This document shows positions 15,650-39,883 of a stretch of DNA of 42,829 nt, one piece after another; the first letter of the stretch is position 1, and each line of letters begins with the position of its first letter. A program made the translations under genes and the position numbers. The notes beneath the pieces are model-generated. The model saw nothing but the letters and a program-made list of their open reading frames with translations, had not been told where the DNA came from and made no database searches. The stretch spans positions 1 to 42,829 of the forward strand of contig JASMMK010000006.1 of assembly GCA_030748215.1 (NCBI GenBank). Direction: 5' to 3'. Source of the stretch: Candidatus Scalindua sp. GTDB taxonomy: Bacteria; Planctomycetota; Brocadiia; Brocadiales; Scalinduaceae.

Positions 15650-17035
15650 ATGCGTTTTAAACAGAACAATGTGATATGGTTTCTGTTGATTTTGGTTGCT
15701 GCTGTTTTCCTGATGTGCGGTGTTTCGAGTGCGGCAGATCCAACAGGGGATAAGACTTTTGCTTTGGACATCAGGGGAATAAGTATGTCCAACAACTTTA
15801 CATGGATTCTTATTTGTTGTTTCGTGATATGGTTCATGCAGGTAGGTTTTGTCTTGTTGGGAGGCTTGTTGCCTGCCAAGAATGCGCTGAACTACATGAC
15901 TCACTGCTTTATCGCCACGACTCTTGGTGTTATCATTTATTGGTTCGTTGGTTTTGGACTAATGTTTGGCGGATTTGAATTCCTGGGACAGCATATTGGT
16001 CACGGTAATCAATTCATGGGTCTGAGTGGTTTTATGTTGCTGGGTGATTCATACGACGTAAGAGTGATTTTGCTGTTTATATTCCAGGCAGTTGTAGCTA
16101 CATTTATAGGTAGTATCATTGCAGGTGCAGTTGCTGAGAGAATGAAACTCTGCTCCTATATACTCATGTTTTTCTTCGTTTATATCTTCATATATCCTAT
16201 TTATGGACATTGGGTATGGGGAGAAGGATGGTTGTGGGAGTTGCCATACGGTGTAGGTATGAGAGACTTTGCAGGCTCTGGAGTTGTTCATGCAATTGGT
16301 GGAACTATCGGCTTTGTCGGTGCCGCCTTCCTGGGCCCACGTGCTGGCAGGTATAATGAGGATGGATCATCAAACTCAATACCGGGTCACAATGTAGGGT
16401 ATATGATTGTTGGTACAATCCTCCTTGCGTTTGGTTGGTTGTTTTATGATGCCGGTAGCACATTGGCTGCAGGAGATTTGAGAATGTCTGTTGTTGCAGC
16501 AAATACCGCGCTTGCCGGGTCAATTGGTGCTGTTACGGTACTCTTCCTCACATACCTGTTGTCAGGTCACACTGACGTTGGTGAAGCATGTAATGGTGCG
16601 CTTGCAGGGTTTGTTGCTATTTCAGCAGGGTGTGCTTATGTTGCACCATGGGCTGCGGTAGTGATAGGGTGCCTGGGTGCCATAATCTACTTGATTTCAT
16701 TCTGGATTATCGGTAATAAGTTTAGAGTTGATGATCCACTTGGTGCGTGTTCCGTTCATGGTGCTAATGGTTTCTGGGGATTAATTGCCTTAGGTATCTT
16801 TGCGGACGGTTCGTATGGTGGAGTTGCTGGTGTAATTACCGGCAATTACGGGCAGTTAGTTGCACAGGTTATCGGAGCTGGAACTGCTCTTGCTTGGGCT
16901 GGAATAATGGCCGTTATATTGTTCAAGTTGATTGGCGGCAAAAACAGCAAATCAAAGATGAGGGTGTCTGAAGACGTTGAAAAAGACGGATTAGACCTTC
17001 ATATTCATGGTACAGCATGTTACCCTGAACAATAG
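15650..17035 (+). CDS. Ammonium transporter family protein Amt1, altered gate residues
   Basis: 461 residues with a signal peptide (cleavage near VSSA, residue 28) and 11 membrane helices of the Amt/Mep/Rh family. The twin pore histidines are kept (H214 in SGVVHAIGG, H370 in CSVHGANG), as are Asp206, Trp190 and Ser270. Several residues at the periplasmic ammonium-recruitment site differ from its three paralogues here: the position of E. coli Phe107 is Val149; WGGGW is WGEGW (Glu192); and WFGFNAGS is WLFYDAGS (263-270), giving Tyr266 for Phe215 and Asp267 for Asn216. The C-terminus keeps the PII-responsive tail pattern (MRVSEDVEKDGLDLHIHG). The ribosome site GAAAGGGGG lies upstream. No PII gene follows directly; a strong terminator does. 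Confidence 0.93.
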   Translation: MRFKQNNVIWFLLILVAAVFLMCGVSSAADPTGDKTFALDIRGISMSNNFTWILICCFVIWFMQVGFVLLGGLLPAKNALNYMTHCFIATTLGVIIYWFVGFGLMFGGFEFLGQHIGHGNQFMGLSGFMLLGDSYDVRVILLFIFQAVVATFIGSIIAGAVAERMKLCSYILMFFFVYIFIYPIYGHWVWGEGWLWELPYGVGMRDFAGSGVVHAIGGTIGFVGAAFLGPRAGRYNEDGSSNSIPGHNVGYMIVGTILLAFGWLFYDAGSTLAAGDLRMSVVAANTALAGSIGAVTVLFLTYLLSGHTDVGEACNGALAGFVAISAGCAYVAPWAAVVIGCLGAIIYLISFWIIGNKFRVDDPLGACSVHGANGFWGLIALGIFADGSYGGVAGVITGNYGQLVAQVIGAGTALAWAGIMAVILFKLIGGKNSKSKMRVSEDVEKDGLDLHIHGTACYPEQ

Positions 17036-17053
17036 ATGATGTATAGAAGTATG

Positions 17054-17100
17054 AATAGCCACCCGCTAGAAAAGGGCGGGTGGCTATTATTACCATTTTT
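17054..17100 (+). terminator. Rho-independent terminator of amt1
   Basis: A perfect 13-base stem, AATAGCCACCCGC (17054-17066) with GCGGGTGGCTATT (17076-17088), loop of nine bases, followed by a T-rich stretch ending in TTTTTT. It starts 19 bases after the amt1 stop, so amt1 is transcribed separately from glnK1-amtB2. Confidence 0.9.
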
Positions 17101-17696
17101 TATTAGTAGTAATTGACTTGATTGTACTATTAAGTCAAAATCTGGCGGGTAGTAATCGTCCAGGTTTCATGTTCGTTAATGTCTGTGAATAAATCGTAAG
17201 CGAAACGATCTAAGGAATACGAATTCGCAAATGTAGCACTTTAGTTAGCTGTATTTTATTTTGACGCTAATACATACCCACATGCATGCCTAGTATAGAT
17301 AAGCGAGGATCACTCGATACTGGTAAATTGCAAAACTTAAGAATACAAATTTCAAATTATAATTTCAGAAGAATAGAAATCTGATTATTTATAGCCTTAG
17401 ATTTCGTCAATGAGATTTGCCTATTATTTGGATTTTGGTACATACCTGAAAGAAAAAACTTTTGCTAAGTTTAATGCCAAAAAGAGTCAAAAAGTATTAT
17501 TAAGAGACTAGGTGAGTTTACAGTTTGTATTAATATGTGCTATAGTGCATTAAAATAACATTATTATATAAATTCTTACATATATTTTATCGAAATAGAA
17601 CTGTATTCATTTCATTCAAAGTGTTTGGTGTTGAAAACGCTTAAGATGGCTAATAGTCGTGATTCTTCTTAATTTATACTGCCAGTTATAAGTGTA

Positions 17697-17768
17697 ATTC
17701 TGTTTTAGCAATAAGTATGGCAGTTTCGCCACTGGTACATATAAGCCATAATATAGCTAAAACAGAAT
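17697..17768. repeat. Long nested inverted repeat between amt1 and glnK1
   Basis: Perfect 13-base arms ATTCTGTTTTAGC (17697-17709) and GCTAAAACAGAAT (17756-17768) enclose a second stem TATGGC (17716-17721) with GCCATA (17745-17750). The 72-base element has no T-tract after it and holds no ORF. It could be a small structured RNA, a miniature transposable element or a regulator-binding region. It sits in the 1.5-kb stretch 17101-18600, which otherwise contains only a doubtful 128-codon ORF and two terminator-like hairpins. Confidence 0.55.
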
Positions 17769-18334
17769 CGGCTCAAATATTGCACTGATGTTTGTAAGGA
17801 CCTGAACTTGCACGACTTAAGATATTTTTGTATGTGCTGTTTCCTATTGGTATATGTATTGCTGTACTGTATTCTTTAGTTTTTTGTTATTAGAGCATAG
17901 TTTTCTGTTTGTATTTAACTGTTTGAGTTTTTATTTGAAATTACTTTTTTTTGAAGAAAATGTATGAATAAGTCCGTGGAATCGATACCAAATGTCAAAT
18001 TAACGACAATAATAAATCATTCAGAAGAAAATAATGATTTGTTCTTGGCAGGGTACAGTAGCTTGCTGGTGAATAGTGATTCAAGGGCTGCGAGGGATTT
18101 TTATTTACTTTTGATAGTATATGTAAATTATTTTTGTGTTCCTGTATTTTCTTTCGTTTTTAAGAGTTTATGTGCATTGAGAAGTAGCATTCGATGCAAA
18201 TTAAGTGAAATTACGAGAGTTGCAGATATGGCAATTACTTTTCTTATGGTGGACAAAAAGTATATTACATTACTGCCATTTTCACGAACAAAACAGGTAG
18301 AATATAATTTATTATCAAGCAATATATATAGAAG

Positions 18335-18378
18335 AACCGTGTTGCTATAGATCGGCTATGGCAACACGGTTTTTTTAT
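18335..18378 (+). terminator. Strong intrinsic terminator upstream of glnK1
   Basis: A 16-base stem, AACCGTGTTGCTATAG (18335-18350) with CTATGGCAACACGGTT (18356-18371, one G-T pair), a five-base loop and a run of T's. No convincing gene ends here: the only ORF running into it (17964-18350) has an unconvincing composition. It therefore ends either a non-coding transcript from the 17.1-18.3 kb region or a fast-evolving small gene. Confidence 0.88.
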
Positions 18379-18450
18379 TAGTTTTAGATAAATGGCATAA
18401 ATGTTGAATTTGTATATTACCGACATTAGAAGATTAGATATATTTTTTTG

Positions 18451-18498
18451 TGCCCAATAGTGTCTCAAGCCTCTGGATAAGTATTTGGGCAGTTTTTT
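18451..18498 (+). terminator. Terminator- or attenuator-like hairpin in the glnK1 leader
   Basis: TGCCCAA (18451-18457) pairs with TTGGGCA (18485-18491), followed directly by GTTTTTT. The loop is long (27 bases) and can fold further. It lies 112 bases before the glnK1 start and 73 bases after the previous terminator, so it could act as a conditional attenuator of glnK1-amtB2. Confidence 0.5.
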
Positions 18499-18610
18499 AG
18501 TTTTGAGATGAGGTTGACCTTATTGGCTGAAAGAAGGGGGGGGGATTTATTAATCGGTAGTATGAATTGTATTCTTTTATTATTTAATGCGTTAATAGGA
18601 GGTGGCTGTA

Positions 18611-18949
18611 ATGAAAAGAGTTGAAGCAATTATCAGGGATGAAAAACTATGTGGCGCTAAGGAAGCATTAAAAGCCCTTGGAGTTGCAGGTATGACAGTT
18701 ACTGAAGTAAAAGGGCACGGTGCTCAGAAAGGTATTACTGAAGTGTATCGTGGTAGGCAGTATTCTGTAGATCTGCTGCCGAAAATTAAGATTGAAGCAA
18801 TTGTTGATGATAATGATGTAAAAAAGGTAACTGATGCTATTTGTGAAGTATCAAGAACCGGTAGTATTGGAGATGGAAAGATATTTATTTCAGGCGTGGA
18901 AGACTGCATTCGTATAAGAACAGGCGAAGCAGGAGCAAAAGCAATTTAA
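18611..18949 (+). CDS. glnK: Nitrogen regulatory protein PII (GlnK1)
   Basis: 112-residue trimeric signal protein that reads 2-oxoglutarate and ATP/ADP and plugs the Amt pore when nitrogen is plentiful. The T-loop runs KGHGAQKGITEVYRGRQYSVDLLPK with Tyr46 and the uridylylation residue Tyr51 both present. The B- and C-loop motifs RTGSIGDGKIF and RIRTGE are intact. ATG 18611 is chosen over the upstream GTG 18602 because AGGAGG ends nine bases before it. amtB2 follows by about 80 bases, the classical glnK-amtB arrangement. Confidence 0.96.
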   Translation: MKRVEAIIRDEKLCGAKEALKALGVAGMTVTEVKGHGAQKGITEVYRGRQYSVDLLPKIKIEAIVDDNDVKKVTDAICEVSRTGSIGDGKIFISGVEDCIRIRTGEAGAKAI

Positions 18950-19030
18950 CATTTTTTTATAGAAATGTGAATAAATTGTTAACGTGTTTAGTTTAAATGA
19001 AAAGTTTGTTAACAAAAGGAGGTTACGCGG

Positions 19031-20362
19031 ATGCGAAAGTTTAGTTATATTTCTATTTTGATGATGGTCTTTATGGTGGTAGCATCCCAGACGGGATGGG
19101 CAGATGATGCTGCTCTAGATACAGGTGACAATTCCTGGATTCTTACATCTTCTGCACTGGTGCTCCTCATGACACCTGGTCTTGCATTCTTTTATGGAGG
19201 TATGAGCTCTGTAAAAAATATAAACAACATGATTATGATGGTCTTTCTATGCATGGCTATAATCAGTGTTCAGTGGGTATTCTGGGGATATACCCTTTCA
19301 TTCGGCCCTGATTGTGGAAGCTTTGTAGGTGGTTTAGGTATGTTAGGTTTACATGGCATTACACCTGATTCACTCTCTGGTACGTTGTCAGAATATACGT
19401 TTGTCGCGTTCCAGGCCACGTTTGCTATCATTACTGTTGGTCTTATACTAGGTGCCGTTGAGGGACGCATGAGGTTTAACGCATGCATGCTGTTTATTCC
19501 TCTTTGGGCAACTGTCTGCTATGATCCTGTTTGCCATTGGGTATGGGGTGGTGGTTGGGCCGGTAACATGGGTATACTTGACTTTGCCGGTGGAACAGTT
19601 GTTCATATCAACTCTGCTGCTGCTGCGCTTGCTCTCTGCTTAATGCTTGGGAAACGTAAAACTGCAAATATCAGACCTCCTGCAAATGTACCTATGATAG
19701 CTCTTGGTGCAGGTTTGCTTTGGTTTGGTTGGTTCGGATTTAATGCAGGTAGTGAGTTAGCTGCTGATGGTAGAGCTGCATTCGCATGGGTTATTACAAA
19801 CACTGCTGCTGCGACTGCTGCCTTTACGTGGGTTGTTGTTGAGTGGATGCATCGAGGAAAACCAACACTGCTTGGCTTGGCCTCTGGTGCTGTTGCAGGT
19901 TTGGTTGCTATAACTCCAGCAGCCGGATTTGTTGGACCATTGGGTTCAGTTCAAATAGGTATTATGTCTGGTGTAGGTTGCTATTTTGCAGCTGTTAAGA
20001 TGAAAGAAGCTATTGGATATGATGACGCATTAGACGTTGTTGGTGTACATGGAGTTGGTGGAACAATAGGAGCATTTGCTACAGGACTTTACTGTACTAA
20101 GTTTGTTATGGGTCCTGATGGTGTTGATGGTTTGTTCATTGGATGGAGTGCCGAGGGTGCTAACCAATTGGGCTTGCAATGTGTAGGGTTCCTTGCTACT
20201 TGGGCTTATACATTTGTAGTAACCATTATTGTCTGCTTAATTGTTAAATACACAACAGGTTTAAGAACTACTGAAGCGCAAGAGGATGCAGGTCTTGATC
20301 TGTCGCTACATGCTGAAGCTGGTTATCACTTAGAAACTGAACCAGTAGGTACTTTAAAGTAA
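19031..20362 (+). CDS. amtB: Canonical ammonium transporter AmtB2
   Basis: 443 residues with a signal peptide (to about GWA-DD, residue 25) and 11 membrane helices. All textbook residues are visible: FQATF (Phe107 equivalent), HWVWGGGW (Trp148), LDFAGGTVVHINS (Asp160, His168), WFGFNAGS (Phe215, Ser219) and VVGVHGVGG (His318). The cytosolic tail GLRTTEAQEDAGLDLSLHAEAGY is the PII-binding, gating-coupled C-terminus. AAAGGAGG precedes the ATG at a good distance. It conducts ammonium across the cytoplasmic membrane (or, in anammox cells, possibly an inner compartment membrane) under GlnK1 control. A terminator follows. Confidence 0.96.
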   Translation: MRKFSYISILMMVFMVVASQTGWADDAALDTGDNSWILTSSALVLLMTPGLAFFYGGMSSVKNINNMIMMVFLCMAIISVQWVFWGYTLSFGPDCGSFVGGLGMLGLHGITPDSLSGTLSEYTFVAFQATFAIITVGLILGAVEGRMRFNACMLFIPLWATVCYDPVCHWVWGGGWAGNMGILDFAGGTVVHINSAAAALALCLMLGKRKTANIRPPANVPMIALGAGLLWFGWFGFNAGSELAADGRAAFAWVITNTAAATAAFTWVVVEWMHRGKPTLLGLASGAVAGLVAITPAAGFVGPLGSVQIGIMSGVGCYFAAVKMKEAIGYDDALDVVGVHGVGGTIGAFATGLYCTKFVMGPDGVDGLFIGWSAEGANQLGLQCVGFLATWAYTFVVTIIVCLIVKYTTGLRTTEAQEDAGLDLSLHAEAGYHLETEPVGTLK

Positions 20363-20446
20363 GCATGTATTGACTTTGTTGTGTCAGTCATAAACCGTTG
20401 GTTCTTACGTGATATATTTAGTACGTTGGAATTAATGGGAATTGAG

Positions 20447-20487
20447 AGGCGTTGGCTATTCTTATAATAGTCAGCGCCTTTTTTTTT
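20447..20487 (+). terminator. Rho-independent terminator of glnK1-amtB2
   Basis: AGGCGTTGGCTATT (20447-20460) pairs with AATAGTCAGCGCCT (20466-20479, one G-T pair), loop CTTAT, then nine T's. The convergent small gene on the other strand ends inside the hairpin. Confidence 0.9.
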
Positions 20488-20938
20488 CGGAAAGGAATTT
20501 AAAACCTCTCAGGTTGTAATTGCAAGTAGGGCATTTCCTAATAAAGAGATACATAACACAAAGGAAAATTGCCCACAACCCTGCAGTAAACAAAGCTAAT
20601 ACTATATCTGCAAAGTCTAATTTATGAAGCCTCTTTGGAACTACAGCTTTTTCACAATATGGGCAGAAAGTTTTTTCAGGGTGTTTTGTTGGTGAGGACT
20701 GTGCTTGACGAGTTTTACTCCTATTTTGTTCAGGAATTATGTCGGTAACTTTGAGGTTTAAGAGTTTAAACCAGTTGCGTTTAGCAAAAAATATTTTGTA
20801 TTTTCTTGCTGCATAGAGATCGATTCGAAAACCTATAGTGTTGTGATATCTGTTATGTTTATTTATAAGGATGCGTTCAGGATCTTTAACGAGATTCTTT
20901 ATTTTACCAATAAAAATATTGAATTTGTTCATGATCAT
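20471..20938 (-). CDS. Hypothetical membrane-associated zinc-finger protein, LITAF-like layout
   Basis: 155 residues, basic N-terminal half without recognised domain. The C-terminal half has CPYC (about residue 92), then 25 hydrophobic residues (FADIVLALFTAGLWAIFLCVMYLFI), then CPTCNYNLRG. Two CPxC knuckles on either side of a hydrophobic stretch is the layout of LITAF-like domains, which bring the knuckles together on one face of the membrane around a zinc ion. This is a pattern comparison only. The stop codon lies inside the amtB2 terminator. No clear ribosome site was seen; the ATG six bases inside is also possible. Confidence 0.6.
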   Translation of the reverse strand: MIMNKFNIFIGKIKNLVKDPERILINKHNRYHNTIGFRIDLYAARKYKIFFAKRNWFKLLNLKVTDIIPEQNRSKTRQAQSSPTKHPEKTFCPYCEKAVVPKRLHKLDFADIVLALFTAGLWAIFLCVMYLFIRKCPTCNYNLRGFKFLSEKKRR

Positions 20939-21151
20939 ATTTGGTATGCATTAAAGGGATCATTGCTAGAAGATGTTTGGTGTGTAAAGAGATCAAAATA
21001 TACAATTTTGTATCTATTGAGAATAGATATATCTCTGTTTGATGATAATATTTGAATGCAGAAAACATGCAAGGACATCTGCAATATTACAACTACTAAC
21101 AGTGCAATTGTCTCTTTTTCATGTCAGCCATTTTTAATTTAAATTAGTATG

Positions 21152-21982
21152 TTATATACTTGCAAGCTCGCTTTTTAATTTTTCTACAGAAGGTATCCTG
21201 TTTGAAGGTTCTTCCTCCAGAAGTCCTAATGTTATTTCATTTAATTTTTTAGGGACTGCGCTGTTAATCTCTATCAGAGACTCGCTGGGTTGTGATTTAA
21301 TTTTACCTGTTAGTACTTCGAATAGAATCAAGCCCATTGTATATAAATCGGTCTTACCATCAAGTTTTATCTGTTCCAGAACAGCCTTTTCGCCTTTTTC
21401 ATCTGTAACATCCTTTAATAAGTTATTCATCTGCCTTTGCTCCGGTGATGCATATTCAACAGTTAAGCCATTAATAAGTTCGCCAGCTTTAATAGAGAGT
21501 TCTAAATCGATCAAGCCTACTATTCCAGTGTCCGAGTTCAGAATTAGATGGCCTGGTTTAATGTCAGCATGGACATACCCTTGTGAATGTAGATATTGCA
21601 AAGGTTCCGCAGTACTTGCAATATACTTTATTACGTTCTCAATCTCACTGGAATCAGGCACACCTTTCTGCTTGTAGTACTCAACTAAATCCTCACCTTC
21701 AAAGTTTTGTAACACAATGTAATACTCGTTCAGTACAAGTTTATCGTCTTTGAATAATTCACCTCTACCAGTGCCAGACTCATATCGTTTTGGAATCTGT
21801 GGATGTGAGAAATTTTTCAAAACTTCATATTCTCTATCATAGCTGTAAGTAGGCGAGTATTTCATTCCCCATTCTCTGTTTCCAGGATTAATCAGGATGC
21901 CATAATTTGCCCTGTGGCCAGGTCTGTACTTAAAATCTTCAAATTCGTAATTTCCTAATTTGTACATATTTTTTTCTTTCAA
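21152..21982 (-). CDS. Atypical protein kinase-like protein 1
   Basis: 276 residues with a Hanks-type kinase fold but altered active-site motifs. Lys41 (WGMKYSP) and a following Glu (51 or 53) can form the usual salt bridge. The catalytic loop is HADIKPGHLIL (H138, D140, K142), where the magnesium-binding Asn is His145. DFG is DLE (159-161). SPE (179-181) replaces APE, and DLYTMGLILFEVLTG is the F-helix motif. There is no Gly-rich loop. It is cotranscribed with amt3, 65 bases downstream of it. A paralogue with the same odd motifs lies at 26293 beyond the transporter genes, so the changes are selected rather than random. It may be an active atypical kinase or a pseudokinase. Confidence 0.82.
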   Translation of the reverse strand: MKEKNMYKLGNYEFEDFKYRPGHRANYGILINPGNREWGMKYSPTYSYDREYEVLKNFSHPQIPKRYESGTGRGELFKDDKLVLNEYYIVLQNFEGEDLVEYYKQKGVPDSSEIENVIKYIASTAEPLQYLHSQGYVHADIKPGHLILNSDTGIVGLIDLELSIKAGELINGLTVEYASPEQRQMNNLLKDVTDEKGEKAVLEQIKLDGKTDLYTMGLILFEVLTGKIKSQPSESLIEINSAVPKKLNEITLGLLEEEPSNRIPSVEKLKSELASI

Positions 21983-22047
21983 AACGAGTTGAATATTTAC
22001 TTATTCAAATTTGATTTACAAAGCCGTCTCGTACATATGGATTAACA

Positions 22048-23469
22048 TCAATTGAAGCCAGGATAGCATGGAATTCCGTGTTCATAAAGATCGATACCAG
22101 TGTTTTCTTCTCCTACAGGTACTCTTAGTCCGACTGTTTTCTTTAATATATAGAATAGAATATAACCCGTCCCTAATGCCCATATCAAAAGAACTACACA
22201 ACCAATGAACTGTGATAACAGCTGCCATCCTGAACCCATAATTAGTCCCTTAACGCCAAGATAAGAACCATCGGCAAAGATACCTACTGAAAGTAATCCC
22301 CAAAGTCCATTTGCTCCGTGGACAGAGATTGCACCGACAGGATCATCTATTCTCAGCCTGACTTCTATAAAGTGCAAGCTCTCTCTCAGAATGATAACAG
22401 CGATTAGACCGATAACGACGGCTGCCCAGTGTGATACATAAGCGCCAGAGGCAGTTATCGCTACGCAACCAGCCAGAGTGCCATTACATGCCATAACTAT
22501 GTCAAATTTTCCGGTGTCATAGTATGTGATGTACATAAGTGCCACACCCCCAGTACATGCTGAAAGGAAGGTGTTTGCCGCAATTATTGAAACCCTGAGA
22601 TCAGTTGATCCTAATGTGCTTCCCGCATTAAATCCAAACCATCCAAACAGCAGGAATAGGGTTCCCAATACTACAAAAGAAAGGTTGTGGCCATGAAACA
22701 TATTTGAAGTGCCGTCAGGGTTGTACTTGCCGAATCTAGGACCGATTTTCCATGCACCGATAAACGCTATTAAGCCTCCAATTCCATGGACGACACCTGA
22801 TCCCGCAAAATCTATCATCCCTGAACCGAACGGAAGTCTTGACAGCCAGCCGCCTCCCCAGACCCAGTGGCCGTATATTGGATAAATAATGCCACATAGA
22901 GTCGCACTACAAATTATATGGGTATTGAACTTAATTCGTTCAGCAACAGCACCAGCCACAATTGTACAGGCGGCAGCAGAAAACATCATTTGAAACAACC
23001 ACAAACTAGACGTTGAGTAGTCATATGAGCTAAAAGAGAGGAAGAACCCACTATATCCGATAAGCATATTTCCGGCGTCGAGTCCATAGGCCAGAAAGGA
23101 TCCTCCAAACATGAGCGCAAAACCAAATATCCAGAAGATCAGCCCTCCAACGCAAAAATCCATAAAACTCATTGTCAGGTAGTTTAAAGTGTTTTTCTGT
23201 TGCAGAAAACCCGCGCCTCGAAAAGCAAATCCCGCTTGCATATTAAAAATGAGAAATCCGCAAAGCAATGTCCATGCAAGATCAATAGATACTTTGACCC
23301 CTGTCACATCAATAATTTCATCAGAATGAACCGAATAATTACTGGCTATATCAGCGGCACCAGCTGCGTGAAAAGCAACAAATAAAATACAGAACATGGT
23401 GACAGGAGTAACTATGTACCGATGTGTCGCTTGTCTTAATAAACTATGTATATTTATTCTGTTCAGCAT
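22048..23469 (-). CDS. Ammonium transporter Amt3
   Basis: About 473 residues from the ATG at 23469; a TTG at 23511 would add 14. There is an N-terminal hydrophobic segment (TPVTMFCILFVAFHAAGAAD), then 11 helices. Pore residues are conventional: LFQMMF (Phe107 equivalent), HWVWGGGWL, IDFAGSGVVHGIGG (first His), WFGFNAGST (Phe215 equivalent) and AISVHGANGLWG (second His). The tail reads GLRVPVGEENTGIDLYEHGIPCYP, sharing the HGxxCYP ending with Amt1 and Amt4 but not AmtB2, so these three form a subgroup. It is separated from glnK2 by a terminator and followed by the kinase-like gene on the same strand. Confidence 0.93.
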   Translation of the reverse strand: MLNRINIHSLLRQATHRYIVTPVTMFCILFVAFHAAGAADIASNYSVHSDEIIDVTGVKVSIDLAWTLLCGFLIFNMQAGFAFRGAGFLQQKNTLNYLTMSFMDFCVGGLIFWIFGFALMFGGSFLAYGLDAGNMLIGYSGFFLSFSSYDYSTSSLWLFQMMFSAAACTIVAGAVAERIKFNTHIICSATLCGIIYPIYGHWVWGGGWLSRLPFGSGMIDFAGSGVVHGIGGLIAFIGAWKIGPRFGKYNPDGTSNMFHGHNLSFVVLGTLFLLFGWFGFNAGSTLGSTDLRVSIIAANTFLSACTGGVALMYITYYDTGKFDIVMACNGTLAGCVAITASGAYVSHWAAVVIGLIAVIILRESLHFIEVRLRIDDPVGAISVHGANGLWGLLSVGIFADGSYLGVKGLIMGSGWQLLSQFIGCVVLLIWALGTGYILFYILKKTVGLRVPVGEENTGIDLYEHGIPCYPGFN

Positions 23470-23647
23470 TGTATTAATAGTAAATTTGTATTTCAGCACA
23501 TTAGAGTACAAACATGTAACTAACTAATAGAAAAGGTAAAACAAAAAAAGTATGATGAATTTATTACATCATAATAGTAGGAATGATAACATTTTCTTTA
23601 GTAAGAGTAAATGCGAAATTGGAGGAAAAAACAGGGGGGGTAAATAC

Positions 23648-23710
23648 AAAAGGAGACCAGTGCTATATCGATATCACTATGCTATGTGATTCGAGACAGC
23701 ACTGGTCTCC
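23648..23710 (-). terminator. Terminator of the minus-strand amt4-glnK2 unit
   Basis: GGAGACCAGTGCT pairs with AGCACTGGTCTCC (plus coordinates 23652-23664 and 23698-23710), a perfect 13-base stem with an inner ATCAC/GTGAT stem in the loop. On the minus strand it is followed by TTTTG. It lies about 55 bases after the glnK2 stop. Confidence 0.8.
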
Positions 23711-23765
23711 ATTATTAAAAACAATTAAAAGTCAATAAATTTCAGTTTTTTTGCAAATAATTGTA

Positions 23766-24104
23766 TTAAATTGCTGTATCACCCTGTTCACCAGTACGAA
23801 TTCTATACACGTTTGAGATTTCAGATACAAATATCTTTCCGTCTCCAATACTTCCTGTCCGCGATTCGTCTACAATGGTCTGAACAACCTGTTCAACAGC
23901 GTCATCTGAAACAACAAGCTCAATTTTAATCTTTGGCAGTAGATCTACTCGGTATCTTTTTCCTCTCCAGACTTCACTTACCCCTTTCTGGTTGCCATGG
24001 CCTTTCATTTCTGCAACTGACATTCCGCCATAGCCTTTCTCTGTAAGCGCATCCTTGATGATATCAAACTTTTCGGGACGAATTATTGCTTCTATCTTTT
24101 TCAT
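23766..24104 (-). CDS. glnK: Nitrogen regulatory protein PII (GlnK2)
   Basis: 112-residue PII protein. T-loop KGHGNQKGVSEVWRGKRYRVDLLPK keeps Tyr51, but position 46 is Trp rather than Tyr. RTGSIGDGKIF and RIRTGEQGD complete the ATP and 2-oxoglutarate sites. A strong ribosome site AAGGAGG lies eight bases before the ATG. It is paired with the broken amt4 gene 93 bases upstream on the same strand, so its original partner is probably lost and it may now serve Amt3 or Amt1. Confidence 0.96.
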   Translation of the reverse strand: MKKIEAIIRPEKFDIIKDALTEKGYGGMSVAEMKGHGNQKGVSEVWRGKRYRVDLLPKIKIELVVSDDAVEQVVQTIVDESRTGSIGDGKIFVSEISNVYRIRTGEQGDTAI

Positions 24105-24197
24105 AAAGTATTCCTCCTTCGATCAAAAACATTTCCAAAATATTTATTTTAAAGAATAAAATCATAAGCTTGATACGTTCTACTGTTCCTTGCTATG

Positions 24198-25753
24198 TTA
24201 TTTCCCTCTTGGTTTGGCATATATCCACCTGCCAAGCTTATCAGAATAAATCTTCTCTCTACTTGCGTCCTTTGCCATAGATTCTTCCAGTATAGCCATG
24301 TCTCTATGAACAGTCTCTTCTACATCTGCTGTGCCTATCTGTGACGTAAGCTCAGATTGTGCAGGGTAGCATGGTGAACCATGTAAGTGTATATCAACAC
24401 CTTCATATTCAACCAATTCAGAGACACGAAGACCAAAGGTTACTTTGAGTATAAAAAACAACAGTGATCCACAAGCAAATGCCCATGCCATCGCAGTTCC
24501 CGCGCCGATAACCTGTGCCTTCATCTGATCAACTCCTCCAACGATCCATCCGCTTACACCTCCGTATGTACCGTCCGCGAATATGCCAATTGCAAGCATA
24601 CCCCAGATTCCATTAGCACCATGTACAGCAACAGCGCCAAGTGGATCGTCAATTTTAAGTTTAGATTCAACAAAAATAACGTGCCACACATAATAGCTCC
24701 AGCCAGAATACCAATAGTTACTGCAGCCCATGGTGGAACATACGCGCAAGGTCCGGTTATAGCAACTAGTCCGCCAAGTGCACCGTTACATGCCATACCG
24801 AGATCTACGAATCCAAATGCGATCCATGATACGAAGATCACAAGAGCTGCACCACCTGCTGCACCCAGGAATGCATTAGTCGCAACAACAGAAATTCTCA
24901 AGTCTGTTGCGCCTAGTGTACTACCGGAATTGAATCCGAACCAACCAAATGCCAAAAGCAATGTTCCCACAACTACCAGTGTAAGGTTGTGACCAGGGAT
25001 CGCATTTGCAGTTCCATCCGGATTAAATTTGTTTTTTCTAGGTCCAAGGAAAGCAGCGCCTACCAGAGCAAGCATGCCACCTACAGTATGTACTACAGCA
25101 GATCCTGCGAAATCAACACATCCTGCACCATATGGTAAGCTTCCTAACCAGCCTCCACCCCACATCCAGTGGCCATACACCGGATAAATTATTCCGCATA
25201 CAAAAACGCTGTAAACCACGTATGGCGCAAACTTCATTCTTTCCGCAACCGCACCTGCAATGATAGTAACTGCCTTGGTACAAAATACCATCTGGAAAAG
25301 CCAAAGCATAACAGTTTGAACATCATAACTGTCGCCAGCAAGGAAGAACCCACTGTATCTCATAAACCAATTACCGTCTTCCAGACCCGGTGCTGCCATA
25401 GAGCCGCCAAACATAACTGCAAAACCACACATCCAGAAAAGAAGTGCTCCCACGGTACCATCAACGAAACAGTGTGCCATGTAGCCAAGCATATTTTTGG
25501 ATTGAAGGAACCCTCCAAGCAATGCAAAACCTGATTGCATTGAGAATACCAGGAATGCTGCAACAAGGGTCCATGTGAAATTGATGGAATATTTTAACCC
25601 GTCAATGCTGTCGGAATAAGTGGCCTCGCCACTTATTCCGACAGCAAACACGATCTTAGAGCTAAAATAAAGCAGTCATGATACGCTTACAATAAAACAG
25701 ACTACATTCAGCCATTTCATGTTACCACGCGACTTATTAAACAATAAATTCAT
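24198..25753 (-). pseudogene. Ammonium transporter amt4, broken by a stop codon and a frameshift
   Basis: Reading from ATG 25753, which has GGAGGGGGG just upstream, the frame gives MNLLFNKSRGNMKWLNVVCF, and a TGA at codon 26 (25678-25676) falls inside the signal peptide; translation would resume as LLYFSSKIVFAVGISG. The rest is a full Amt until GAIMCGTLF, where a run of five A's on the plus strand (24672-24676) is one short. A sixth would restore LFFVESKLKIDDPLGAVAVHGANG. Pore residues are conventional (LFQMVF, HWMWGGGW, VDFAGSAVVHTVGG, WFGFNSGST). The C-terminus has an extra 50-residue tail after HGSPCYPAQ. Two separate lesions argue for a decaying gene, though either could be a sequencing error. 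Confidence 0.85.
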
Positions 25754-26292
25754 CTATCCCCCCTCCAAAGAATAAATTAAAAAATCTACCAGCATACTCG
25801 TGTGCCAGTGAAACAAGGTTAACATTATACGCTAGTTAGGTACTAATGTTAATAAAAAAATTACTATTTATAAGAGCTTGTTTAAATGGTCTAACAATGA
25901 GTTTCTTCTCATTTATCTATCAAGAAGTATTTAACAATATGGTCTTTTGATAGAAGAATAGTGTTATTAATCATTTTGCAAAACAATCGATATTGCACAA
26001 TACTCAAGGAAGAAATTAGCATAAAAGTCTGTAAATTATTTAAATACCAATCCCACTTCATTTTGTTTTTATATTAATTATTATTTTTTACGACTTGCAT
26101 CTTATTGAATTTTGTTGTATCTATACTAAGCGATTTTCGGAGCTGCGACCTTCTGGTTGCGTGACTTACGTGAGTTTTACAATACTCAACAGATCGTGCA
26201 GAAGTGTAAATTTAGCCTTTGTCTACTATAAATTACATGCTATAACCCTTGACTAAATTGCATTAAAATTAATACTAACCTGAATTAATGTT
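25754..26292. other. Divergent intergenic region between amt4 and kinase-like gene 2
   Basis: 539 AT-rich bases holding the control regions of two divergent units. I see no ORF or terminator. On the minus strand CTGGCACACGAGTATGC (about 25791-25807) resembles a sigma-54 site, but its GG and GC are 11 bases apart rather than 10. On the plus strand TTGACT near 26249 could be a -35 box for the kinase gene, without a good -10 match. Confidence 0.4.
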
Positions 26293-27114
26293 ATGTTCTC
26301 GATAAAAGAATACAAATTTGAATCCTTCCGAACAGTTGCCGATATGCACAAGTCAAATTATGCAATGTTATTAGAGAATGACGCTTTGGATATAAAAAAT
26401 ATGGGTATAAAGTACTGTCCACATTTGACTTTTGAAGATGAATATTATGTTTTACAAGAACTAGACCATATGCAAATTCCAAAGGCTTATGATTTTGGCC
26501 AGGAAATCATGTACGATGATGAGAAGGTTGTACTGAAACAGCATTTTATTGTACTCGATCATACCAGCAATACTGATCTTATGGGACATTTTAAGATGAA
26601 AACAGGCTATTTCCCTCCGATAGATGAGGTTGTGAAATGTTTTATCAGTGTATGTGATCCATTAGATTATTTGCATTCAAAAAATTTCATTCATTGCGAT
26701 ATAAAGCCTGGCCACCTGTTGCTGGACCCGGACATAGGGGCAGTGTATTTGATTGATTTTGAACTTACGATACGAAAAGCAGGAATTTTAAAAGGAATTA
26801 GCATGGATTATGCTTCTCCCGAGCAGCTTACTCTGGTTGAACAACTTAGGGGTACACCTGAAAATGTTCCACTAGAAGCAATTTCGTTTTTTTTGTCCAT
26901 CGATGGCAGGGCAGATTTGTATTCAACAGGAGCAATTTTCTATGAAATCCTTACTGGACAAAAATGGCACGAACAAAAATCTCCTCCAATTGAATTTAAC
27001 AAATCAATCCCTCCAAAACTGGAAGAGATTATAATGTCAATTTTAGAGGAAGATCCTGCGAAAAGAATAGATTCGGCTAAGCAACTAAAACAATCATTAG
27101 AATCTGTATTATGA
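26293..27114 (+). CDS. Atypical protein kinase-like protein 2
   Basis: 273 residues, paralogue of the protein encoded at 21152-21982 on the other side of the transporter genes. Lys40 and Glu50 form the N-lobe pair, the catalytic loop is HCDIKPGHLLL (H134, D136, K138, His141 for Asn), DFG is DFE (155-157), ASPE is at 174-177, and ADLYSTGAIFYEILTG marks the F helix. The Gly-rich loop is missing in both paralogues. There is no transmembrane or sensor domain. The phosphoesterase gene follows 10 bases after its stop, forming a possible kinase/phosphatase unit. Targets are unknown; Amt tails or PII are candidates by location only. Confidence 0.82.
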   Translation: MFSIKEYKFESFRTVADMHKSNYAMLLENDALDIKNMGIKYCPHLTFEDEYYVLQELDHMQIPKAYDFGQEIMYDDEKVVLKQHFIVLDHTSNTDLMGHFKMKTGYFPPIDEVVKCFISVCDPLDYLHSKNFIHCDIKPGHLLLDPDIGAVYLIDFELTIRKAGILKGISMDYASPEQLTLVEQLRGTPENVPLEAISFFLSIDGRADLYSTGAIFYEILTGQKWHEQKSPPIEFNKSIPPKLEEIIMSILEEDPAKRIDSAKQLKQSLESVL

Positions 27115-27124
27115 GGGTAGTAAA

Positions 27125-28045
27125 ATGAAATTCTTAATCATATCAGACATTCACAGTAACCTTGAAGCGTTGGTCTCTGTTTTTTCTGACCTTCATAGCA
27201 ATAATGAAAAGATTGATAGAATATTGATACCAGGTGATATTGTCGGATATGGACCTAATCCAAACGAATGCTGTACTATTGTAAGGTTTCTAAACAACGG
27301 TAAATCATTTTTAAAGAGAGAGATTCAAGAGTTAATACAAGAAGTAGACCTTGACGATGCTGACAAAAAAAATATTATTGATTATATTTTTTCAATGGGC
27401 AATAAAGCTAACGTAGTAGCAGGTAATCATGACAAAGAGGTTATTGGGCAGCCTTCTCTATGTAGTGTAATGGCCGCTTCTGCAGGAAATGCAGCAAAGT
27501 GGACAACCAAGGTTCTGCAGAAGCCTAATGCTAGGTTTCTCGATTCATTATGTTATAAAAAGAGAATAAGAAAATTTGGTATAGAGTTGGTTCACAGCAC
27601 GCCAGTCTATCCTCAAGGTTATCGGTATGTCAAGAATGCGGCAACTTTGAACTACGATATACTACATTCAAGCATAACCATTTCCGGTCATACGCACAAG
27701 CCGTCAGCATATTTATATACAAAGCAAAAAAGAGATATCTCTGCTTCTGTCTTCATACCAACAGACCAATTTGATAACAGACTTATGCTGGTTGAAAGAG
27801 AATCAATGGAGAGGCAGGAGACATTTGATATTTCTTTGGCTAGCGGTCAACGTTACTATATAAATTCCGGTTCTGTAGGCCAGCCAAGAGACGGAACTCC
27901 TAAGGCCTCTTATATGATTTACGATACTGTGGCAAAGCAAGCTTCTTTAAGAAAAGCAGCGTATAATACAGAAATAGTAAAGAAAAAAGTACTTAAAGCC
28001 ACCCTTCCATTTGATCTTGCGGAACGTATAGTAAAAGGAGTGTGA
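27125..28045 (+). CDS. Calcineurin-like metallophosphoesterase
   Basis: 306 residues with every metal motif of the family: DIH (D8, H10), GDIVGYG (D38), GNHD (101-103), VHSTP (H157) and GHTH (H189, H191). There is no signal peptide, so it is likely cytosolic. Relative to YfcE-like enzymes it has an insert of about 35 residues (57-95) between the GD and GNHD motifs. It is coupled tightly to the kinase-like gene, which suggests it removes phosphate from the same target, though nucleotide substrates are equally possible for this family. Its stop overlaps a 14-base palindrome GTGAACGTGTTCAC (28042-28055). Confidence 0.9.
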   Translation: MKFLIISDIHSNLEALVSVFSDLHSNNEKIDRILIPGDIVGYGPNPNECCTIVRFLNNGKSFLKREIQELIQEVDLDDADKKNIIDYIFSMGNKANVVAGNHDKEVIGQPSLCSVMAASAGNAAKWTTKVLQKPNARFLDSLCYKKRIRKFGIELVHSTPVYPQGYRYVKNAATLNYDILHSSITISGHTHKPSAYLYTKQKRDISASVFIPTDQFDNRLMLVERESMERQETFDISLASGQRYYINSGSVGQPRDGTPKASYMIYDTVAKQASLRKAAYNTEIVKKKVLKATLPFDLAERIVKGV

Positions 28046-28186: not shown

Positions 28187-28939
28187 ATGCGATTCCCTAT
28201 TATTTCAGACATACACAGTAACATGGAAGCTCTTATAGCTGTTTTCTCTGAACTTCACAAACAAGATGAAAAAATAGACGGTGTTCTAGTGCTTGGAGAT
28301 ATTGTAGGTTATGGAGTCAATCCTAATGAATGTTGCACAATAATAAAATATTTGAAAAGCGGTGAATCCTTTATGAAAAGTGAAATTGATGCAATTATCC
28401 ATAAAAGTGATATTGATAAACTGGCAAGACATTCGTCCATTCCAGTAGAGTGTATTGTTCATGGTTCCCTTCCAAGTATGCTACTGGAGCATTGCCTGCC
28501 GGCAATGCTGGTTACTAAAACAAATGCAAAGAGTGGATGCAGATTGCCCTGTCGCTATATCAACTACGGCCTAAAGGATGAAAAGGGAGAGATCAGGACG
28601 ATAGAAGTAGACCAGTATTGTAGGAATCATATTATGTTTGCATCAGACTTGTGTGTGTTGCCTTACCTGAATTCATTTCTGATGACAGATGTAGAGACGT
28701 TTAGAATTGAGGCACAGTACTATGAAGATGATCTGGTGGAAACGGTAGTAAACCAATATCGTAAACGTATGGATCTGTTAATGGAAAACCCGACAGTTTT
28801 CTACCCTTTGCCCGAAGCGGAGTGGAAAGACCTGGTAGAGAAATCTCCAAAAGAGTTAAGCTTGTGTGCATACTCTCAGAATGTTACATATTCACGAAGT
28901 ACACTGGAAGTAATGAAGACCGCAACTCAGGCAAATTAA
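28187..28939 (+). CDS. Chimeric protein: phosphoesterase N-terminus fused to U32 peptidase C-terminus
   Basis: 250 residues. Residues 1-78 align throughout with the preceding phosphoesterase (SDIHSN, LGDIVGYGVNPNECCTII, KSGESFMKSEID) but stop before GNHD, so most metal ligands are absent. From about residue 85 the text is that of the C-terminal half of U32-family peptidases: VECIVHGSLPSMLLEHCL, GCRLPCRYINYGL, VDQYCRNHIMFASDLCVLPYL, and RIEAQYYEDDLVETVVNQYRKRMD. The four cysteines of the U32/UbiU iron-sulfur site appear to be kept (C103, C118, C122, C145). The joint is in frame and no stop interrupts 250 codons. It may be a genuine new fusion or a recombination relic. There is no clear ribosome site. 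Confidence 0.7.
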   Translation: MRFPIISDIHSNMEALIAVFSELHKQDEKIDGVLVLGDIVGYGVNPNECCTIIKYLKSGESFMKSEIDAIIHKSDIDKLARHSSIPVECIVHGSLPSMLLEHCLPAMLVTKTNAKSGCRLPCRYINYGLKDEKGEIRTIEVDQYCRNHIMFASDLCVLPYLNSFLMTDVETFRIEAQYYEDDLVETVVNQYRKRMDLLMENPTVFYPLPEAEWKDLVEKSPKELSLCAYSQNVTYSRSTLEVMKTATQAN

Positions 28940-39057: not shown

Positions 39058-39124
39058 ATGACGATTGCCAGGATTATTGCATAGGCTGACAGTTCTTTTA
39101 TAAATGTAATAATTGTTTACGTCG

Positions 39125-39242
39125 AGATAAGGGCAAATCGTGAGTGATCACGAGACGCAAAGTGAAGGGTCTTGATATAGTTTAAAGACAGCCTTACTGC
39201 CAAAGATGTTCTGATTAATGTCTTAGGTTGTAAGGTTTTTTT
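39125..39242 (+). promoter_or_regulatory. Cyclic di-GMP-I (GEMM) riboswitch with expression-platform terminator
   Basis: The core matches the GEMM-I consensus: GGGCAAA (39131-39137), helix TCGTGA/TCACGA capped by the GNRA loop GTGA (39138-39153), then GACGCAAAG (39154-39162), then GGGTCTT...AAGAC-AGCC (39167-39193) as the second arm. The 3' end CCTTAC (39192-39197) can instead pair with GTAAGG (39230-39235), aided by AAGA/TCTT, to form a terminator followed by seven T's. The aptamer and terminator thus compete for the same bases. It lies about 215 bases before the 3D-domain gene, which is the probable target. Direction of control was not worked out. Confidence 0.75.
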
Positions 39243-39457: not shown

Positions 39458-39883
39458 ATGAGGATTAGAAGAGAAGGAAGTCTGGCATTATTATGTACCA
39501 GGAAGTTTGTCACAGTGTTCGTTGTTGGTATGTTTATTTTTCTATCTAGTGTGGTCTTCATTAACAAAGTGAACGCTGAGGTATTCAAAGCAACTGCTTA
39601 CTGCTCATGTGAGAAATGTTGCGATAAGGATCCTTCTGATGAATTGTATGGGATTACGGCATCAGGTAAAAGGGCGCGTTGGGGAACTGTTGCAGTTGAC
39701 AGAAGAGTTATAAAGCTGGGCAGTCGATTAAGGATAAAGGGTTTTCCTGATACTATATTCAGGGCTGAAGATGTTGGTAGCGCTATAAAGGGTAATCGTA
39801 TTGATGTATGGTTTCCAAGTCACAGAGAAGCATTAAAGTTTGGCGTCCAGAAAATCGTTGTTCATCGTGTGCGAAACGGATGA
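39458..39883 (+). CDS. 3D-domain secreted protein (putative peptidoglycan-active enzyme)
   Basis: 141 residues. The N-terminal signal segment (residues 13-33, VTVFVVGMFIFLSSVVFINKV) ends near VNA-EV. The rest is a 3D domain (double-psi barrel of the MltA/YabE/YocH type): TAYCSCEKCCDK, GITASGKRARWGTVAVDRRVIKLGSRLRI, and RAEDVGSAIKGNRIDVWFPSHREALKFG, which holds the three conserved aspartates. Such domains cleave glycan strands or assist resuscitation-type lysis. The Cys-rich loop (four Cys in ten residues) is typical of the bacterial YuiC/YabE group. It is the likely target of the c-di-GMP riboswitch upstream. Confidence 0.85.
   Translation: MRIRREGSLALLCTRKFVTVFVVGMFIFLSSVVFINKVNAEVFKATAYCSCEKCCDKDPSDELYGITASGKRARWGTVAVDRRVIKLGSRLRIKGFPDTIFRAEDVGSAIKGNRIDVWFPSHREALKFGVQKIVVHRVRNG

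Follow-up and report, generated by a model that had tools for sequence, protein, structure and literature searches.

The analysis described here points to a conserved two-gene signalling module, composed of an atypical kinase-like gene (KA) and a metallophosphoesterase gene (MPE) directly following it, with a second kinase-like protein (KB) as an accessory, which may control the branch of ammonium uptake formed by one PII protein, GlnK2, and a partner ammonium transporter (Amt) in anammox-type bacteria in which GlnD was not detected; we put the probability of this reading at roughly 40%. The genes lie in a 42,829-nucleotide stretch of DNA (hereafter the window), which is contig C6 (JASMMK010000006.1) of a 2.44-Mb draft genome of Candidatus Scalindua sp. 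(GCA_030748215.1), most likely an anammox bacterium because the genome encodes a hydrazine synthase alpha domain. Positions 15650 to 28045 hold four amt and two glnK genes, a pair of kinase-like genes and one gene of a calcineurin-like phosphoesterase, all of them located where the original prediction had placed them, except that the fourth amt gene is not intact, carrying a TGA codon and a frameshift:

15650-17035, plus strand: amt1, ammonium transporter of 461 aa (Pfam PF00909, E 4.6e-101)
18602-18949, plus strand: glnK1 (PII), T-loop QKGITEVYRGRQYS (PF00543, E 3e-29; T-loop table); homology begins at ATG 18611
19031-20362, plus strand: amt2, 443 aa (PF00909, E 2.7e-116)
21152-21982, minus strand: KB, predicted atypical Hanks-type kinase (Pkinase, E 1.8e-16; KB clade support 1.0), lying about 65 bases past the end of amt3; conserved start at ATG 21967
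22048-23511, minus strand: amt3, 487 aa (PF00909, E 2.4e-115)
23766-24104, minus strand: glnK2 (PII), T-loop QKGVSEVWRGKRYR; PII type whose occurrence follows that of KA (PF00543, E 2e-29)
24198-25753, minus strand: amt4, long-tail Amt, broken (in-frame TGA and frameshift near 24681)
24225-24251, minus strand: IYSDKLGRW, the core of the tail block conserved at the amt4 C-terminus (conserved alignment columns)
26293-27114, plus strand: KA, predicted atypical Hanks-type kinase with K40, E50, H-x-D136-x-K-P-G-H141 and D155-F-E157 (Pkinase, E 2.3e-19)
27125-28045, plus strand: MPE, calcineurin-like metallophosphoesterase, partner gene of KA (PF12850/PF00149)

In all 49 genomes that contain KA, MPE directly follows it, no more than 450 bases away and on the same strand (10 bases in the window, as had been predicted), and this constant order, together with the low pairwise dN/dS values (0.09–0.11 for KA and 0.07 for MPE, with 0.11 for KB; four pairs), argues that the pair is not due to chance. 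The metal ligands of MPE (D8, H10, D38, N101, H102, H157, H189 and H191), which make up the D-x-H, GD, GNHD, H and GHTH motifs of calcineurin-like enzymes, do not vary among 55 sequences (47 genomes, with second copies counted); a sequence search of the PDB returned 3rqz, whose title is simply 'Metallophosphoesterase', and one further, weak match. At E<=1e-40, MPE was matched in 48 of the 62 genomes of the order; unmatched were the nine genomes of family f3, the one of family f5, G046 and G033, all devoid of KA, as well as G012 and G043, in which a contig end cuts the gene after KA.

Kinase matches at E<=1e-25 were obtained in 50 of the same 62 genomes and in none of the 13 genomes examined from elsewhere in the class. 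KA is present in 49 of the 52 genomes of families f1 (Scalindua type), f2 (Anammoxibacter) and f4 (Brocadia/Kuenenia/Jettenia type), being absent from G016, G033 and G046, and in none of the nine f3 genomes or the single f5 genome. A generic kinase ORF in G014 (L166, first ORF) and ORFs shorter than 230 aa, such as a partial KA copy in G058 (L177), were dropped before counting, and a second KA-like copy of G002 (L049) was left out of the per-genome counts and kept for the motif count. This copy (L049 6526-7338), in an Anammoxibacter-type genome, adjoins neither MPE nor amt, a PII gene lying about 4 kb off. In G016, a KA pseudogene (L157 9952-10706), in pieces in several frames, stands beside an intact MPE, and no KB match is present. 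A pattern-seeded scan of 84,980 species, one genome per species, whose patterns were taken from KA and may miss very diverged relatives, returned 51 loci, 50 of which belong to the KA/KB subfamily and one to an ordinary kinase (Anaeromyxobacter); the record titles of the former are Scalindua, Anammoxibacter, Brocadia, Kuenenia, Jettenia, Brocadiaceae, unplaced Planctomycetes, one 'uncultured bacterium' and one Parcubacteria. Use of the kinases as markers of anammox metabolism was rejected, the hydrazine synthase alpha domain being found in six of the nine f3 genomes, none with the kinases, and in 31 of the 49 KA genomes.

KA and KB are indeed paralogous and atypical. They share 37% identity, and a search of the draft genome with KA matched just these two genes. 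The KB sequences form a single clade (support 1.0) spanning f1, f2 and f4, so that the duplication is old; KA does not come out as a single clade in the same tree, which is midpoint-rooted with the root beside one stray kinase. A kinase fold is indicated by Pkinase matches over the cut-off and by the AlphaFold model of KA (pLDDT 89.3), for which the best PDB match in Foldseek is PknB (E 1.8e-16, TM about 0.7). Like the Hanks-type Ser/Thr kinases (PknB; PDB 5u94 and 1o6y), KA has the overall fold, the catalytic Lys/Glu/Asp residues and an APE-like motif, and an alignment of 50 sequences shows no variation at Lys40, Glu50, Asp136, Lys138, Asp155, Asp208 and Arg258 (KA numbering), among them the β3 Lys (K40), the αC Glu (E50), the catalytic Asp (D136) and the catalytic-loop Lys (K138). 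Unlike the PknB-type enzymes, KA has no glycine-rich loop, carries HxDxKPGH instead of HRDxKPxN and D-x-E instead of DFG, and is a stand-alone protein of 270 aa with no further domain in a Pfam scan. The substitution of His for the Mg-binding Asn of the catalytic loop and that of Glu for the DFG Gly, with the Asp kept, are seen in 95 of 95 distinct KA/KB genes (97 ORFs, two stretches having been fetched twice), whereas Asn and DFG are present in all 14 readable ordinary kinases of the same genome set (20 fetched, six not matched by the pattern); invariant H19, N22 and Y23 stand in place of GxGxxG. Judged from sequence, KA and KB are one divergent Hanks-type subfamily, for which catalysis is predicted from fold and residues.

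Linkage alone is not decisive as to the function of these genes, and co-inheritance is the better evidence. The GlnK2 T-loop, QKG[VI]SEVWRG[KR]RY[RK], is encoded in 46 of the 49 KA genomes (45 found by a pattern that also required the next two residues, and G034, which differs at one of those, by eye), and in none of the PIIs fetched from KA-less genomes. Moreover, all three losses of KA within the KA-bearing families coincide with the absence of GlnK2: G016 (99% complete) is the sole genome of the 62 without an intact PII, retaining a remnant with stops; G033 lacks KA, MPE and GlnK2 and keeps KB; and G046 lacks KA, KB and MPE and encodes its single Amt in a 685-aa kinase-fused frame. The long-tail Amt, whose gene lies beside KA in f1, f2 and most of f4, shows a comparable distribution. 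Its C-terminus consists of a variable linker and then the block LLE...D..REKIYS[DE]KLGRW[IV]YA, in which 20 sequences, picked for having the motif, all share R499, E500, I502, Y503, S504, K506, G508 and W510. The REKIYS[DE]KLGRW stretch is found on the long-tail Amt in 45 of the 49 KA genomes, those missing being three with cut contigs and G057, and it is retained in all ten KA-bearing genomes of genus g13, where KA has moved off; it was found in none of the Amts fetched from KA-less genomes, which are part of their Amts and cover five of the nine f3 genomes.

It had been proposed that phosphorylation acts here beyond the usual uridylylation, a notion that was not borne out in that form: the GlnD/GlnE domain PF08335 was detected in none of the 52 genomes (complete ones as well as many drafts) of f1, f2 and f4, the window genome included, and the known uridylylation is probably absent from these kinase-bearing families. 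The domain occurs in all nine f3 genomes and in the single f5 genome, where the open frame is GlnE-like, and all of these ten lack KA and KB; f3 genomes G003, G007 and G008 encode a PII with the classical LELYQGSEY T-loop and have the PF08335 enzyme and a PII encoded on one contig. This mirror pattern within the order could stem from one evolutionary event.

With respect to gene order, the distance from KA to an amt gene is at most 1.3 kb in 16 of 16 f1, two of two f2 and 19 of 21 f4 genomes outside g13; the two others are G043, with 11 kb upstream of KA free of amt, and G038, whose contig stops 343 bases upstream of KA. Within g13, amt is near KA in none of ten genomes (in G019 it is 6.6 kb away, and G023 has a short contig). 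Overall, KA–MPE adjoins amt in 37 of 49 genomes, is away from it in 11 and is uninformative in one. KB is within 1.3 kb of amt in all 14 f1 and both f2 genomes, and in four of the 29 f4 genomes with KB it stands in a KA–MPE–KB row about 3 kb from amt. Thus, the predicted bracketing of the cluster by the two kinases is seen in Scalindua and Anammoxibacter and fails in f4, where KB is apart from amt in 25 of 29 genomes. The separation from amt/glnK genes in relatives, which the original prediction had named as the pattern contradicting a regulatory link, is accordingly present in part, affecting KB in most of f4 as well as KA–MPE in g13 and G043, and the link between KA and MPE itself is never broken. 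In f3, the equivalent amt cluster (G004, G005 and G010; over two contigs in G004) contains a sensor kinase, an NtrC-like regulator, two PIIs, an Amt and later a second Amt, with KA, MPE and KB all absent.

Several of these observations, and others, weigh against the proposed module. KA–MPE is apart from amt in the ten KA-bearing g13 genomes and in G043, and KB is so in 25 of 45 genomes, all from f4, with no amt within 3.4 kb on the stretch fetched (the KB–amt distances in G023, G026 and G041 rest on short contigs). MPE is intact in G016 after the decay of KA and may have another job, and KA is intact in the window, L092 and G057 despite amt4 being lost or broken. GlnK2 is missing among the PIIs examined from three KA genomes, G038, G050 and G051, in which the contig ends 0.3–1.5 kb from KA on the usual GlnK2 side, and one further PII each in G038 and G051 is not of the GlnK2 type (only part of the PIIs of G050 and G051 being covered). 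The single PII of G046 has a similar T-loop (SEVF), somewhat different from that of GlnK2, yet this genome has no KA; Ser/Thr43 and Tyr51 are also present in other PIIs; and the co-inheritance argument is carried by only about three independent losses. As 12 of 13 genomes from other orders of the class have neither GlnD nor the kinases, the latter are dispensable in the absence of GlnD, and a proven swap of one for the other was rejected. Replacement of the metal-site Asn and DFG Gly and absence of the glycine loop make kinase activity uncertain. Finally, no sigma-54 promoter common to the genes concerned was found: upstream patterns are not enriched for KA (0/53), KB (0/43), MPE (0/62) or PII (2/111), nor for the long-tail Amt (1/44) and other Amts (3/135) relative to other genes (26/1174).

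The most serious alternative is that KA–MPE constitutes a general signalling pair and that its nearness to amt and glnK is an inherited gene order devoid of function. The dispersal of KA–MPE in g13 and G043 and of KB in most of f4, the persistence of KA without amt4 and the retention of MPE in G016 would all be expected from it, and one ancestor could account for most of the correlation. We nevertheless regard this alternative as rather unlikely, because KA and GlnK2 are jointly missing in three genomes of KA-bearing families, and because GlnK2 and the Amt tail block have stayed with KA in g13 despite the lost linkage.

The active-site substitutions found throughout KA and KB, together with the missing glycine-rich loop, also raise the question of whether the two are pseudokinases, that is, ATP- or ligand-binding adaptors that dock on GlnK2 or Amt and act allosterically without phosphotransfer. 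Pseudokinases often lose the catalytic Asp, the catalytic-loop Lys, the ATP-anchoring Lys–Glu pair and the metal-binding Asp. Each of these is invariant in the 50 aligned KA/KB sequences, and a phosphoesterase gene follows KA in every KA genome, so that a purely allosteric role appears unlikely.

The state of amt4 bears on the part played by the Amt tail. In the window, the in-frame TGA falls within the signal-peptide region of one frame, the proteins of relatives run on in another frame from about 24681, and the long-tail amt gene is itself split over two ORFs, as in G014. L092, the closest relative found, retains only a remnant of amt4, mainly the last 48 residues, with KA, MPE and GlnK2 intact, and in G057 a PII gene directly adjoins KA with no amt in between; the decay of amt4 is therefore probably real in these relatives. 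In all, three Scalindua-type sources (window 24198-25753; L092 2478-2664; L042) have no intact long-tail amt, the gene being broken, a remnant or absent, while their KA, MPE and GlnK2 are intact. The record of L092 is titled Parcubacteria, although its contig carries a Scalindua-type cluster with a KA 87% identical to that of the window, and is apparently a mislabelled bin. Since KA outlasts the loss of the long-tail Amt, the tail is not its only client, and the idea of a sole client was rejected; GlnK2 fits the loss pattern better than the Amt tail does. The structural model of the Amt is poor (mean pLDDT 59.9) and is given no weight apart from a hint of a tail hairpin. Conversely, the tail may have nothing to do with KA and serve as a membrane-targeting or assembly signal, for instance for the plasma membrane versus the anammoxosome, in line with its presence on one Amt only (Amt_1 would be the long-tail Amt, judging from gene order) and behind a variable linker; we consider this improbable, as the occurrence of the tail follows KA and as six of nine f3 genomes match hydrazine synthase, yet the Amts examined from five f3 genomes have no tail.

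Returning to the KA–MPE module, we propose that KA, possibly with KB, would phosphorylate GlnK2 and so act on this protein and on its complex with Amt. Because cyanobacterial Ser49 corresponds to Lys or Arg here, the acceptor would be another T-loop residue, most likely Ser43 or Tyr51 of GlnK2, or lie in the Amt tail, and KA might perhaps also phosphorylate the C-terminal tail block of its partner Amt. The phosphorylation state would set whether GlnK2 plugs the channel, and MPE, by taking the phosphate off, would oppose KA. This specific form of the proposal, with KA as the GlnK2 kinase and KA–MPE as a covalent switch of ammonium uptake in GlnD-less anammox lineages acting via GlnK2 and a dedicated Amt tail block, is possible and at the same time doubtful; the kinase activity, its substrate and site, the direction of control and the action of MPE as a phosphatase are all predicted from the gene pairing, inheritance and residues described above. 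That KA is instead a kinase-fold nucleotidyltransferase acting on GlnK Tyr51, with MPE as the phosphodiesterase removing the group and GlnD thus substituted by unrelated enzymes, is very improbable, since Phe51 is present in several f4 PIIs, the catalytic Asp is retained and no sequence mark of known kinase-fold nucleotidylators turned up (none being specifically tested for), although no GlnD domain was found in these genomes, Tyr51 is retained in the GlnK2 T-loops, the KA active site is remodelled and MPE matches the model of the YfcE phosphodiesterase, below the cut-off.

The proposed mechanism is worth comparing with known systems of PII and Amt control. In plants, phosphorylation of the AMT tail controls the channel. 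In Mep2, likewise, the channel is under kinase control through a cytoplasmic tail (PMC4852598); both of these systems are eukaryotic, whereas the Amt tail control suggested here would be bacterial, and a bacterial counterpart was found neither among open-licence PMC titles nor in the partial text of a review of prokaryotic Amts (PMC10433425). Cyanobacterial PII, treated in a review of PII modification (PMC4285133), is phosphorylated at Ser49 and dephosphorylated by the PP2C-type phosphatase PphA, its kinase not having been identified at the time of that review. The idea of PII control through phosphorylation is shared, whereas residue 49 is Arg in GlnK1 and Lys in GlnK2 of the window, the partner is a metallophosphoesterase and a candidate kinase gene lies alongside. 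With uridylylation or adenylylation by GlnD the module would have in common a covalent GlnK switch coupled to Amt, in genomes where the GlnD/GlnE domain was not found. Kinase signalling is tied to Amt in anammox bacteria also by Kuenenia Amt5, a histidine-kinase fusion (PMC5764959), and the window genome encodes an Amt–histidine kinase fusion on contig C40; such proteins are fused two-component histidine kinases, whereas KA and KB are separate proteins predicted to be of the Ser/Thr type. The expanded amt/glnK cluster of anammox bacteria is already known, as the original prediction stated, Scalindua profunda having a published cluster of four amtB and two glnK genes (PMC3655542), and the Kuenenia amt/nrp operon and its expression have been published as well (PMC7438415). 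In the partial text of the latter, GlnD, uridylyl and phosphatase are unmentioned and kinases are treated as histidine-kinase domains; nor did open-licence PMC, searched mostly by title, return any title that places a Ser/Thr kinase or a phosphoesterase in the amt clusters of anammox bacteria. What appears to be new is the KA/KB subfamily, with MPE as its fixed partner and with its inheritance tied to that of a single GlnK type.

Further features of the window and of related clusters were noted:

20471-20938, minus strand: small protein of family c6, between amt2 and KB (no Pfam/NCBIfam match)
28187-28939, plus strand: chimeric ORF in which the N-terminal 77 aa come from a second MPE and the remainder is the C-terminal half of a U32 peptidase (junction at about 28418)

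Family c6 has 15 members, in 15 loci of the first map; the window protein has the cysteine pairs CPYC and CPTC on either side of a hydrophobic stretch, and the gene adjoins amt2/KB in f1 and f2 and is near the amt cluster in g17 and g20. A protein of family c11 (L054 14703-15683; about 325 aa, no Pfam match) is encoded between two amt genes in f4 and f3 clusters. The points joined in the chimeric ORF are about 10.8 kb apart in a relative (L032), and a deletion or an assembly join is the likely origin. No tRNAs were found in the window, and its single Rfam match at gathering scores is a c-di-GMP-I-GGC riboswitch at 39123-39205, upstream of the ORF at 39458.

Altogether, a kinase–phosphoesterase gene pair tracking one PII suggests an uncharacterised switch of ammonium uptake in bacteria that seemingly lack the usual PII-modifying enzyme, and KA–MPE, together with one GlnK type, supplies specific proteins as well as a T-loop and a tail block with which such a switch can be tested.

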